This document shows positions 33,112-37,036 of a DNA stretch of 64,000 bases, in pieces. Every line of letters starts with the position of its first letter. Within the stretch, counting starts at the first letter, position 1. The notes beneath the pieces were generated by a model. That model saw nothing but the letters and a program-made list of their open reading frames with translations, was not told the origin of the DNA and did no database searches. The translations under genes were made by a program, and so were the position numbers. The DNA is from a gamma proteobacterium HdN1 (GTDB lineage Bacteria > Pseudomonadota > Gammaproteobacteria > Pseudomonadales > Ketobacteraceae). Location: positions 4,500,527 through 4,564,526 of the forward strand of contig FP929140.1 in assembly GCA_000198515.1 (NCBI GenBank), in the 5' to 3' direction.

Positions 33112-33693
33112 TTGGCGCTGGATGAAAACAGCTCCGAACTGATCCTGACCAACAAAGCCACAGGCGAAAAATCCCGTATCTGGGGTGACCCACACTTCGA
33201 TACCACGGGCGATGGCAAAAACATGGTGGATTTCAAAGGCACCGCCACGTTGAACCTCGAAGACGGCACCAAAATCACAATCAATACCCGGCCTGACCCA
33301 AACAACCCCAACGTAACCTATGCAAGCCAGCTCACCATTACCAACGGCCACAACGCAATTTCCGTGAACGGCCTCGACGCAATCACGAAAGGCGATTTAG
33401 AAATCCAGCAGCACCAAGCAGGCGCGATTTTGGACCTGATCACCCCAGACGGTGTGAGCCTTTACGAAAACGACAAAGGCCCAGGCTGGCTGATACGCGA
33501 TAGCTACTGGATGCGTGAAGTCCCACTCACCCAAGATGGTATGAACCGCGCCGAAGAAATCAACAATAAAAAGCCTGAAGACCCCATGGCAGGTTTGCGT
33601 AGAATGATGCTAAACGAGCTGGCCGCCAGCGGTACGCTTAACGAGAAATTAGTAGAGCTCTTTGAAAAGACAGCTGCCCCGCAGTCTGCTTAA
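33112..33693 (+). CDS. DUF1521 self-cleaving domain (C-terminal part of the split gene)
   Basis: 193 codons from ATG 33112, but the frame is open back to the C10 tract at 32953 and probably continues the preceding gene. The domain has WGDPHFDTTGDGKNMVDFKG, matching the GDPH motif at which calcium triggers Asp-Pro cleavage in NopE1-type (MIIA) proteins, then TKITINTRPDPNNPNVTYAS, LTITNGHNAISVNGLDAITK and LDLITPDGVSLYEN. The family includes a rhizobial type III effector and marine Vibrio proteins. No ribosome-binding site precedes 33112, which supports the split-gene view. A terminator follows at 33721. Confidence 0.82.
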   Translation: MALDENSSELILTNKATGEKSRIWGDPHFDTTGDGKNMVDFKGTATLNLEDGTKITINTRPDPNNPNVTYASQLTITNGHNAISVNGLDAITKGDLEIQQHQAGAILDLITPDGVSLYENDKGPGWLIRDSYWMREVPLTQDGMNRAEEINNKKPEDPMAGLRRMMLNELAASGTLNEKLVELFEKTAAPQSA

Positions 33694-33720
33694 GTTGAAA
33701 AGAAAGGTTAAAGGAAACGC

Positions 33721-33748
33721 AAAAAGACCCGCAAATGCGGGCCTTTTT
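33721..33748. terminator. Bidirectional intrinsic terminator
   Basis: CCCGC (33728-33732) and GCGGG (33737-33741) pair, with GA and CC extensions, flanked by A5 on the left and T5 on the right. It separates the convergent DUF1521 and TULIP-like genes. Confidence 0.88.
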
Positions 33749-33762
33749 GTTCTCTGCTTCGG

Positions 33763-36039
33763 TCAGCTTCCTTTTATTTGTACATGCACCGTCGCACACT
33801 CGTCCGAGGGCACCAATTGTGCCGTGCGCGCGCAGATTTCAATGGTATGCAGCCCTGCATTCAAACCGTACAGCTCAATCGACTCCCGCTCACGCCACAC
33901 CGAGAACGGCGCACCGTCCACACGATAGCGGTATTGCAGATCACCGGCGGCCAAATCGGGGTTGTAGCCATTCAGCGCGATCGTTACGACATTGCCCTCT
34001 ACGGTCACGGCATTCGCTGCACGAGCGCTCCTGACGCCACTTACCGACGCCGTTGTGCCATTTTCTACATAAGCGCTCAGGTGAGGCGCAGCGCGTGCGG
34101 CTTTTCCTTGCGCGCGTATCATGCTGGCCACTAGACCGATGTAATTCGCGCTTTCATCGGTCACCCAGATTTCTCCAACGCTCAGGTTATAACCCTCAAA
34201 GCTAGGCAGAGGAATCGCACCGATCATACCCAATACAACCGGCACGACTTTCGGAGTAAGCTCATTGATGAAGGACTGCGCTAGATTATTACCCAGCACG
34301 AGGGTGCTCGCAGGATCCATTGCACGAATTTTAATGCGGGGCGATCCTGCAAATTCTACCGACAAGGCATTTTGATCGGTCATCCCCAAGTTGGCGGTCG
34401 CTTCAATATCGACAGTGGCACCCATTACGGTTCTCATCGTGCCCTTTTTATCAATGGCTGCATCCAATCCCAAATACACATCATGCATACGGAAAGTCGC
34501 CAAACCACGGCTGGATTTCACCAATTCCAAACTCGGGGCAGAGGCTGCATTCAAGCGCACTCGCACGCTCTCGGCAGAGCCTGCACCATTGATGTCTTTC
34601 AGGCCGGGAATGTCTTTATCCGTCATAGAAACGGTGAGCATTCCAGAAGTCGTGACCGCCGCAAGCGCCTGGTTGATCATATTCTGAGAAATCACAATTC
34701 CAATATCGCGCACCGCACCCTTAGGCGAGACGTTGCTGGCAGCAGGAACTGCGGCGATTTCTTTCCAAGGATAGCCGACAATCGCGGGGCCTTTATGGGT
34801 GATTGCATTGATACGCGCACCCAAGCCAATTACCAAGCCATTTTCCGGCGTTGCGATGCTGGCGGGCAGAATTTCCGGGCTAATTTGATTGCCGTTAATG
34901 TCAATCACAATATTGCGCGGAAAGGTATCGACCATTTCGGCCATCTTCGCCGGTAGAATGGCTTTTAACTGGCCTTCCAGAATCCACACCACGATGCCTT
35001 TGAACGCATTCAGGAAGGGATCCACCAGCCAGCTCGGAAGAATGCTAACATCAGCACTCAGCTTACCAAGGCTCAGCGACAGATTTTCTAAGGATACTTT
35101 TAGCTGGTTACCCGCACCTACGCTTACTTTCGCGGTGGTTGAGAAAGTGATCTTGTCTACCGAAGCCGCTACTGGAATCCGAGTCGTCCAGCCAATCAGG
35201 GGGTCGAGGCGCACTTCTGCATCGGCCCAAAAACCGCTCAGCGTGCCGCTCACATCCAAGCGTCCATCGGCGCTATTTTTTACTGCCAGATTAAGCTTGT
35301 TATCGGCAATTGTTGCATCATTTACGTTGATGCGATAGCAGCTGCCTAAAATGCACTCTTCTTTTAGCGGATTCATGCCTTTTAGCAAGCCGCCAAGAGC
35401 CGAGGTTTTCAGCAGGCTCTCAAGCTCACCTTTGATAAAATTCAGGCCGGCGCTGCTTACCCGTACACTCAAGCTATTGGCAACGCTCACCGTTGGGCGC
35501 GCAAATTTTTGAACACGAACACGGCCAATGCGGTCGGTCGCGGTAAAGGTAATAAAATTTGCGTTGGCAACTTGCGCTTCAAACTGGTTGCTCGCATTCA
35601 GGCTGACGGCGCTGCCGTTCACCTGCACGGATTGCACACCGGATGGATCTTCCGCATAGCCACGCACGACGAGCGTGCTGCCCTCGGTCACTTGCGTGAT
35701 GTGCACCACAGGGCCAGCAGCATCGTAGAGGAATTTGACCGTGGGGGTCGCTGGCGTTACGACGCGCAAAAAGTTTTCACCATCGACAAGATAATCCGCA
35801 ATGCTCGCGCCAGCCGCAAGCGCGCCTTCAGCCTGGATTACAAATAGGCTGGTAATATCTTGATCATTAAGGGTAATCTTAAGCGTTGCGGGCTGCCCTT
35901 TGGTAAAGCTAAGGGCAATGTCGGGAGGCGTGGTATAAACCTCACCACCCACAGGATTGGTCACAGTGACCGCTTTACAAGCGGTAAGAAACACGGCGAA
36001 CAGCGTCACCAAGAAGAGGTTGCGCACATCAATTCGCAT
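33763..36039 (-). CDS. Large lipoprotein with a BPI/TULIP-like lipid-binding fold
   Basis: A protein of 758 residues with lipobox LTAC (Cys21). The first 180 residues are Ig-like. Residues about 190-430 and 430-650 resemble the two halves of BPI/LBP-type proteins: each has a long amphipathic helix next to strands, e.g. WLVDPFLNAFKGIVVWILEG and LKAILPAKMAEM in the first, and IVISQNMINQALAAVTTSGM, then LAQSFINELTPKVVPVVLGM and IPLPSFEGYNLSVGEIWV in the second. The last pattern is close to the PLP-x-Y-L end of the BPI C-terminal domain. A C-terminal Ig-like part ends with two Cys (EICARTAQLVPSDECATV). Lipid binding is inferred. GGAGG precedes the ATG at 36039 by eight bases. Confidence 0.7.
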   Translation of the reverse strand: MRIDVRNLFLVTLFAVFLTACKAVTVTNPVGGEVYTTPPDIALSFTKGQPATLKITLNDQDITSLFVIQAEGALAAGASIADYLVDGENFLRVVTPATPTVKFLYDAAGPVVHITQVTEGSTLVVRGYAEDPSGVQSVQVNGSAVSLNASNQFEAQVANANFITFTATDRIGRVRVQKFARPTVSVANSLSVRVSSAGLNFIKGELESLLKTSALGGLLKGMNPLKEECILGSCYRINVNDATIADNKLNLAVKNSADGRLDVSGTLSGFWADAEVRLDPLIGWTTRIPVAASVDKITFSTTAKVSVGAGNQLKVSLENLSLSLGKLSADVSILPSWLVDPFLNAFKGIVVWILEGQLKAILPAKMAEMVDTFPRNIVIDINGNQISPEILPASIATPENGLVIGLGARINAITHKGPAIVGYPWKEIAAVPAASNVSPKGAVRDIGIVISQNMINQALAAVTTSGMLTVSMTDKDIPGLKDINGAGSAESVRVRLNAASAPSLELVKSSRGLATFRMHDVYLGLDAAIDKKGTMRTVMGATVDIEATANLGMTDQNALSVEFAGSPRIKIRAMDPASTLVLGNNLAQSFINELTPKVVPVVLGMIGAIPLPSFEGYNLSVGEIWVTDESANYIGLVASMIRAQGKAARAAPHLSAYVENGTTASVSGVRSARAANAVTVEGNVVTIALNGYNPDLAAGDLQYRYRVDGAPFSVWRERESIELYGLNAGLHTIEICARTAQLVPSDECATVHVQIKGS

Positions 36040-36304
36040 CGAAAAGCCTCCGGCAGGACAAAACAACAAAAGCCGACAAAAAACACCGTGCGCCTAGAAG
36101 CAATGGTTCACCACAAGGAGACTGTTGCTCAGGCGCAATGGCTGACCCAGTGCCGGTCAAAAATTGATCACCCCTTATAAGTTGCATAGTAGGCTACATA
36201 ACCGCCTAATGCAATTCATGCACGAGTGGTTCACAAAATTCACACAAAGTGTTACAACCAACAGACGGCGCAACAAAACGCCCTTCACAGGACTCTGGTA
36301 TCGA

Positions 36305-37036
36305 ATGCAGCTCCCTTTGCGCCGCTATCCAAGCACCCTCACCGTTCACCGCAGCTTGCCCACGAACTTGGCTGGGCGGGATTTTTTCGTGGGCGATACG
36401 CATGGACATTACACGCATTTATTCCAACAGTTGGCTCGGGCAGGATTCGATGCAAGCGTGGATCGCCTGATCGCCACGGGCGATTTAATCGACCGTGGCG
36501 ATCAGAGCATGGCGATGCTGGAATTGCTTGAGCAGCCGTGGTTTTTCTCGGTGCTCGGCAACCATGAGATTATGTTTTTGGAAGGGATGCTCAACGAAGA
36601 CCGTCACTACATTGCGATGCAACTGCAGAACGGCGGCCAGTGGCTGCAAACTTTCAATGAAGACGATCTACGCCATCAGGCACGCCAGATTGCAAAATAC
36701 TGCCCCTTGGCGATCACCGTGGAAACCACTGGCTATAAGGTCGGTATCTGTCACACCGACCCGCTACTGGAGAATTGGTCAGCCATGCAGAAGCTGCCGT
36801 TGAAGGCGTTTTATCCTGAACTTGCTTGCCTTTGGTCGCGCAGTCGCTATCAAAAAGCCCGCACCGGCAAACCGCAAAAACCAATTGCCAATATTGACAT
36901 TGTGATCTCTGGGCACGTCGCTTGTGATGCGCCTACTTGGGCAGCGAATCAGGTGTTTATTGATACTTTCCATCGCGGTGGCGCGCTCACGGTATCAACC
37001 CTAAGCGCGCTTTTGAACCCGACAACCATCGCGTAA
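36305..37036 (+). CDS. PPP family serine/threonine or bis(5'-nucleosyl) phosphatase
   Basis: A metallophosphatase of 243 residues. Motifs in order: GDTHGHY (residue 30 on), GDLIDRG (near 60), GNHE (near 85), and the later ISGHVACDAP with its metal-binding His. This places it with PrpA/PrpB-like and ApaH-related enzymes; the substrate is unknown. The start is set at ATG 36305 (MQLPLRRYP) because the motif spacing fits the family. An ATG at 36164 in frame would add 47 basic residues. It is convergent with the LysM gene. Confidence 0.86.
   Translation: MQLPLRRYPSTLTVHRSLPTNLAGRDFFVGDTHGHYTHLFQQLARAGFDASVDRLIATGDLIDRGDQSMAMLELLEQPWFFSVLGNHEIMFLEGMLNEDRHYIAMQLQNGGQWLQTFNEDDLRHQARQIAKYCPLAITVETTGYKVGICHTDPLLENWSAMQKLPLKAFYPELACLWSRSRYQKARTGKPQKPIANIDIVISGHVACDAPTWAANQVFIDTFHRGGALTVSTLSALLNPTTIA

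Follow-up and report, generated by a model that had tools for sequence, protein, structure and literature searches.

Is the product of one lipoprotein gene in the 64,000-nucleotide stretch of DNA analysed here (the window) a bacterial relative of the BPI/LBP/CETP proteins, which carry lipids in human immunity and blood, and, if it is, what might such a protein do for the cell that makes it? A sequence-only reading had proposed a BPI/LBP-like lipoprotein at 33763–36039, and we examined the gene, its predicted product and its relatives accordingly.

The gene and the predicted architecture of its product

The open reading frame lies on the minus strand exactly where it had been placed, with an ATG at 36039, a stop that ends at 33763 and a translation of 758 aa. 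Its product begins with MRIDVRNLFLVTLFAVFLTAC, a type II signal with the lipobox LTAC and a lipobox cysteine at residue 21, and the lipoprotein nature claimed for it is borne out. The signal peptide MRIDVRNLFLVTLFAVFLTA (residues 1–20; 35980..36039, minus strand), helical in the model at residues 5–19, precedes the putative lipid-bearing Cys21 (35977..35979, minus strand), which is at least 90% conserved in family alignments A1 and A4. The residue at +2 is Lys which, under the E. coli sorting rule, denotes the outer-membrane type (Lol route), and Lys after Cys21 thus makes an outer-membrane site likely; across 35 family members this position is most often K (10) or S (7). A regular expression recovered a lipobox in 62 of the 70 distinct family ORFs of at least 550 aa, one of the 62 (L095) being doubtful. 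Four of the eight misses are cut at the start of a contig or region, one has an over-long start, one has a lipobox that the pattern missed, and two (L100 and L145) have a signal without a lipobox.

Just 3′ of the gene is a terminator-like hairpin with a 13-pair stem and a T-rich tail (33720..33749, minus strand), detected in a scan that found 6 sites compared with 3.9 in shuffled sequence. The flanking ORFs are both on the plus strand; one is convergent (33112–33693; it presumably resembles DUF1521-type proteins) and the other divergent (36164–37036), so the gene looks like a single-gene unit.

We modelled the protein with AlphaFold2, without templates and with the 30-row family alignment as input (pLDDT 82.4, pTM 0.77). 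The predicted layout, encoded throughout on the minus strand, consists of a lipid anchor, two Ig-like domains, TULIP-N, TULIP-C and an Ig-like tail. TULIP-N (about residues 186–412; 34804..35484) comprises a strand at 186–194, a helix at 196–212, long strands and a long helix at 336–370; TULIP-C (about residues 429–645; 34105..34755) has a strand at 446–451, a helix at 452–465, further strands, a long helix at 584–606 and final strands. The remainder of the model forms beta-sandwich domains. The first Ig-like domain (residues 22–106; 35722..35976) resembles part of the Deinococcus HPI S-layer protein (VIA, residues 21–106, Z 8.2), the second (residues 107–185; 35485..35721) has a weak, sub-threshold Pfam likeness to Glucodextran_B (E 0.0098) and Big_7 (E 0.83), and the C-terminal Ig/FN3-like domain (residues 647–757; 33769..34101), with conserved Cys736 and Cys748, matches the end of BT4663 (VIA, Z 10.2, 105 residues, rmsd 2.7).

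The five best PDB chains in a Foldseek search with this model were BPI, BPI, LBP, LBP and CETP (E 1.8e-22 to 2.2e-18), followed in sixth place by a chain of the OrfX1–OrfX3 complex (E 2.3e-8). By VIA, the best match is human BPI (Z 19.1, rmsd 5.1, 426/456 residues), with model residues 186–643 lying on chain residues 1–456; CETP gives Z 15.5 (rmsd 3.3 Å, 415/472 residues), and chains of the OrfX complex, P47 and YceB give Z 8.2–8.6. A second AlphaFold2 target, a member from Thalassolituus maritimus, matches BPI with Z 19.9 (rmsd 4.7, 436/456). The sequence-only reading had seen a BPI layout in two consecutive regions and had named a structure model as a way to check it; the predicted structure has that layout as TULIP-N and TULIP-C, both with a curved sheet and a long helix against it, and can be superposed on almost the whole of BPI. 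Two tandem helix-in-curved-sheet domains are predicted in both members modelled, and along the predicted strands hydrophobic residues alternate unevenly. Because the structures on which AlphaFold2 was trained include BPI, these models are not independent of BPI; the sequence search is.

Sequence kinship to BPI and LBP

We searched 177,635 distinct PDB sequences with profiles of the family (hmmsearch). The full 30-row profile finds human BPI (2.3e-8 and 4e-8) and LBP (1e-6), and beyond these it matches, up to E 10, only four sequences, all of them Far1, at 0.24 or worse. The three top matches of a 35-row profile restricted to the TULIP domains are BPI (2.2e-8 and 5.1e-8) and LBP (1.7e-5). With TULIP-N alone (profile A5), BPI (2e-5 and 6e-5) and LBP (2.4e-5) are again found, followed by the TULIP protein SPLUNC2B at 0.3. 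The profile of TULIP-C alone finds no TULIP among the PDB sequences at E ≤ 1, which leaves TULIP-N as the main basis of the sequence link; a control profile of the Ig region likewise finds none at this threshold. Profile-level searching therefore supports the proposed kinship, as the family profile reaches both BPI and LBP by sequence.

Single sequences and curated models see little of this. With the window sequence as a single query, phmmer finds no TULIP, its sole match being an acetyltransferase (E 0.0077). In Pfam, the window protein scores 13.5 bits against PF01273, for which the gathering cut-off is 28.8, and PF02886 (cut-off 23 bits) is not listed for it. Among 30 members, 5 match PF02886 weakly and 2 touch the N-terminal Pfam domain; the best PF02886 match (E 0.0012) should fall under 23 bits, judging from a match at 1.5e-7 that corresponds to 31.6 bits. 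The L003 paralogue, at 15.4 bits, is below the curated LBP_BPI_CETP and LBP_BPI_CETP_C cut-offs, and NCBIfam has nothing near its cut-off.

Within the alignments, the clearest motif is ISQNMINQALAAVTTSG at the start of TULIP-C (residues 450–466; 34642..34692, minus strand), in which N456, Q457 and G466 are identical in all of 35 members and which hmmsearch pairs with BPI LSDYFFNTAGLVYQEAG. The first reading had instead pointed to short motifs repeated in both regions. S-G-x-L does occur in both halves (264 and 465), but VVP (598) and PLP...YNL (610–619) occur once each, in the second half only, and the spacing from PLP to YNL is four residues rather than three. In the region of the VVP helix end and the PLPSFEGYNL strand (residues 598–619; 34183..34248, minus strand), the family profile aligns to BPI 389–435 in a further segment that, taken alone, lacks significance (hmmsearch). 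Chance is thus an unlikely explanation of the resemblance on account of the profile matches to BPI/LBP among PDB sequences, and not on account of the short motifs. We regard as real a paralogous, unannotated bacterial family with, by prediction, the two-barrel design of BPI and with detectable sequence kinship to BPI/LBP.

The family, its neighbourhoods and its possible roles

Four copies of the family are present in the genome that contains the window (4.59 Mb, one contig). Matches occur in 17 of 57 genomes, this one included, which are 14 of the 15 genomes of the same taxonomic family and three others of the order; two genomes (G003 and G006) have nine matched places each, some of which are fragments of a single gene. 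When 390 genomes of the order were sampled, the 30-row profile matched 32; in 28 the match reaches the TULIP domains, the other four (G507, G632, G702 and G718), which match in the Ig-like part only, having been dropped. Two ORFs of this Ig-only kind look caspase-like by eye. Copy numbers in the order-wide scan are minima, as at most two candidates were scored per genome. In a phylum sample of 398 genomes, long matches occur in the own genome only, together with one partial match to the Ig region. A pattern-based scan of named genomes returned 18 loci, including Ketobacter, Thalassolituus maritimus DSM 24913, an Oceanobacter MAG and other Gammaproteobacteria, and plasmid records contained no family match. 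The single window protein, used as query against genome contigs, finds no relative; scans with the Pfam models give no match to PF01273 in 249 genomes and a match to PF02886 in 1 of 299. In a tree of 67 ORFs, the 70 distinct ones less three fragments (a quick method, with many long branches), the window protein groups with four orthologues from another genus of its family (SH-aLRT 100). Divergent members retain both TULIP domains (alignment A7). Searches of open-licence PMC articles turned up no report of the family.

The reading that we consider probable is that of a two-domain TULIP (tubular lipid-binding) lipoprotein of BPI/LBP/CETP architecture, anchored in the outer membrane and carrying lipid-like ligands. 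The protein would be exported, would receive its lipid at Cys21 and would stand on two Ig-like domains at the outer membrane, where its tandem TULIP barrels, arranged as in BPI, should each hold a hydrophobic pocket. Lipid-like hydrophobic molecules could then be picked up and passed between the outer membrane and another acceptor, for which an inner-membrane partner, a transporter, and extracellular lipid or oil are candidates; paralogues would differ in ligand or place. Lipid binding is what the predicted fold suggests; the activity would be lipid transfer between membranes.

Which lipids would be carried, and on which face of the membrane, is where explanations diverge. Among the rivals, the one we rate highest, while giving it clearly less than an even chance, is a periplasm-facing shuttle that would move envelope lipids (phospholipid, lipid A, sterol- or hopanoid-like molecules) between both membranes in a YceB-like role; the accessible part of one study proposes that YceB shuttles envelope lipids between membranes (PMC5507252). 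Lys at +2 in the window protein, and K and S as the commonest +2 residues in the family, fit the Lol outer-membrane route, and one member adjoins MMPL permeases, one of them an MMPL–LolA_like fusion. However, the patchy spread described above (28 of 390 genomes in the order and, of 398 in the phylum, the own genome alone) is unlike that of a housekeeping role, and the tails of several paralogues point outward. Two paralogues in the own genome end in five Cys-rich repeats of about 40 residues each instead of an Ig-like domain (L003:3493–4158, which is own genome C1:983504–984169, and own genome C1:1631900–1632562). These repeats mostly end in GYxGVGPVCW, and GPVCW occurs in 9 of the 70 distinct family ORFs; the Cys-rich tail has no match in 248 other genomes of the phylum (E ≤ 1e-5), being found in the own genome only, and matches no PDB sequence. 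A member of 1,281 aa (L098:6704–10546) carries TSP3 repeats (E 9.1e-16) and a weak, sub-threshold ricin-B-like stretch after its TULIP domains. Such endings, TSP3/lectin-like or Cys-rich repeats in some paralogues, tip the balance slightly towards surface display.

An outward-facing alternative, which we hold to be possible but doubtful, is the surface binding of hydrophobic growth substrates (alkanes, wax esters, triacylglycerol) that would be handed to FadL- or MMPL-linked uptake. The carriers include Ketobacter, Thalassolituus and Oceanobacter, genera with hydrocarbon degraders, and we take the T18/T64 bins to be of oil origin. Two neighbourhoods speak for such a role. In one (L092:8818–18439), a gene for an MMPL–LolA_like fusion, DUF1302 and an MMPL gene lie on one strand directly upstream of a family member, in a genome that shares its genus code with the Ketobacter record L038; in the other (L045), the member adjoins a FadL/TodX-family gene, with a P450 and an MMPL gene nearby. 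The available sections of a proteomic study of T. oleivorans, of a genus with hydrocarbon degraders, report that growth on n-C28 raised an MMPL/LolA-like protein 42-fold and a FadL homologue ninefold, and that a porin beside the MMPL/LolA-like protein was expressed only on n-C28 (PMC6304351). By analogy, the L092 gene set recalls this n-C28-induced MMPL/LolA-like protein and its neighbouring porin; the same sections make no mention of the family studied here, which counts against the idea (PMC6304351).

The wider neighbourhoods also weaken it. Across 39 compared loci, in which the family cluster contains 42 ORFs in 36 loci, gene order is conserved within genera only. Neighbour clusters c1, c2, c3, c16, c17, c19 and c38 recur between genera without a fixed place; by eye we take them to be common families, such as ABC ATPases and short-chain dehydrogenases, with c3 a presumed carboxylesterase, and c38 is MMPL. 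In the Ketobacter-type loci L038, L039 and L091, a c3 ORF directly adjoins the member; in three loci of genus g4 (L087, L088 and L090) it lies elsewhere. In 78 fetched neighbourhoods, some regions being represented twice, phmmer (E 1e-8, few query proteins) finds MMPL in 7, P450 in 3 and FadL in 3. MMPL is nevertheless abundant in carrier genomes (9 matches in the own genome and 17–38 in 11 others), and its proximity is therefore not counted as above chance. The window copy has no MMPL, P450 or FadL neighbour, by eye or by phmmer, and no fixed partner emerges from the gene neighbourhoods.

A further alternative, which we think improbable, is an adhesin or structural protein that keeps the TULIP fold without transferring lipid; Ig-like domains on both sides and the TSP3/lectin-like or Cys-rich tails of paralogues would suit it, but a pure adhesin would not need the two TULIP domains that divergent members retain. 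Charge bears on the last. The N-terminal TULIP tip of BPI is cationic and binds LPS, whereas the net charge of TULIP-N is negative in 35 of 35 rows of the family, and the cationic tip feature of the BPI/LBP branch is absent. The values for the window protein are close to neutral (TULIP-N pI 5.9, net −1; TULIP-C pI 6.8, net 0), with the other 34 of 35 members at pI 4.1–4.8 for TULIP-N and 4.1–5.3 for TULIP-C; a BPI-type attack on LPS is unlikely because these relatives are acidic, an argument that is weaker for the near-neutral window protein. The binding of LPS as by BPI/LBP, whether for its transport or against other bacteria, is the least credible explanation. In its favour, BPI and LBP are the closest relatives in structure and sequence, and charge alone does not exclude LPS for the window protein; against it, the TULIP domains of the other members are acidic, opposite to the tip of BPI, and the protein is anchored in its producer.

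Relation to known TULIP systems

The outer-membrane lipid carrier that we favour can be set beside several known systems. It was fair of the sequence-only reading to remark that there are few bacterial TULIP proteins, although an earlier prediction of a two-domain, BPI-like family in bacteria exists: according to the accessible part of a 2019 survey, DUF4403 (PF14356) is a bacterial pseudo-dimeric TULIP with a full two-TULIP BPI layout by prediction (Levine 2019, PMC6791001). Because of this earlier prediction, the layout is not without precedent, and in being bacterial and in its predicted layout DUF4403 is like the family described here. DUF4403 is not among the 19 Pfam families matched by any of 30 members at E ≤ 1, has no match in the own genome at E ≤ 1e-10, and was found in 4 of 60 sampled genomes. 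Its profile, aligned to ours by hhalign, gives E 0.072 and probability 0.8, at low power (4 versus 35 rows), and a search of PDB sequences with the 4-row profile comes back empty at E ≤ 10. This comparison, an uneven contest between 4 and 35 rows, shows only that the two families appear not to be close.

YceB (DUF1439) is also a TULIP lipoprotein and matches model residues 429–639 (VIA, Z 8.2), but it is a single-domain protein without Ig-like domains, and its match, which covers one domain of the fold, is far weaker than that of BPI; DUF1439 is not listed in Pfam searches of 30 members. P47 and OrfX are bacterial TULIP proteins that match over both domains (Z 7.8–8.6 with two models), but they belong to neurotoxin gene clusters and, at rmsd 8.5–14.2 Å, are far below BPI. 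An orphan ORF of 594 aa from another proteobacterial class (L083:817–2598) exceeds the PF02886 cut-off at 31.6 bits. Its phmmer matches to LBP and BPI are weak (E 0.0009–0.005), the family profile aligns to it over the same TULIP-C motif (hhalign E 0.0033, probability only 9.6), and it occurs in 1 of 61 genomes of its own family.

In the accessible part of the 2019 systematic search, homology between bacterial and eukaryotic TULIPs was weak, the best case being the pair of DUF4403-N and BPI-N, to which HHsearch gave a probability of 63% (PMC6791001). With simple profile searching of PDB sequences, a bacterial family is now tied to BPI/LBP at E 2e-5 to 2e-8. This family is predicted to be a multi-copy, probably outer-membrane lipid carrier in culturable bacteria, for example Thalassolituus maritimus DSM 24913, and the bacterial side of the BPI/LBP/CETP lipid-carrier superfamily is thereby opened to direct testing. 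Bacterial origin or transfer of the two-domain BPI form can therefore be addressed by a tree to which eukaryotic sequences are added. A bolder proposal, which we consider unlikely, is that the animal BPI/LBP/CETP line has its bacterial source (or a transferred copy) in or next to these lipoproteins, which in oil-eating gammaproteobacteria would have multiplied into a means of capturing single alkane or neutral-lipid molecules at the surface and passing them to FadL- or MMPL–LolA-type machinery. If true, bacteria would have an LBP-like lipid presentation step.

Compared with BPI/LBP/CETP (PF01273 + PF02886), the family differs in being composed of bacterial lipoproteins, with Ig-like domains before and after the TULIP pair, that are mostly acidic. 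Identity to the window protein in the structural alignment is about 14%, and the window protein falls under the Pfam cut-off. Vertebrate BPI/LBP/CETP have a conserved disulphide in TULIP-N, unlike the family described here, the TULIP-N alignment of which contains no conserved cysteine column. What the two share is a pair of tandem TULIP domains, superposable along almost the entire chain, an N-x(9)-G motif where TULIP-C starts and a sequence match at the level of profiles.
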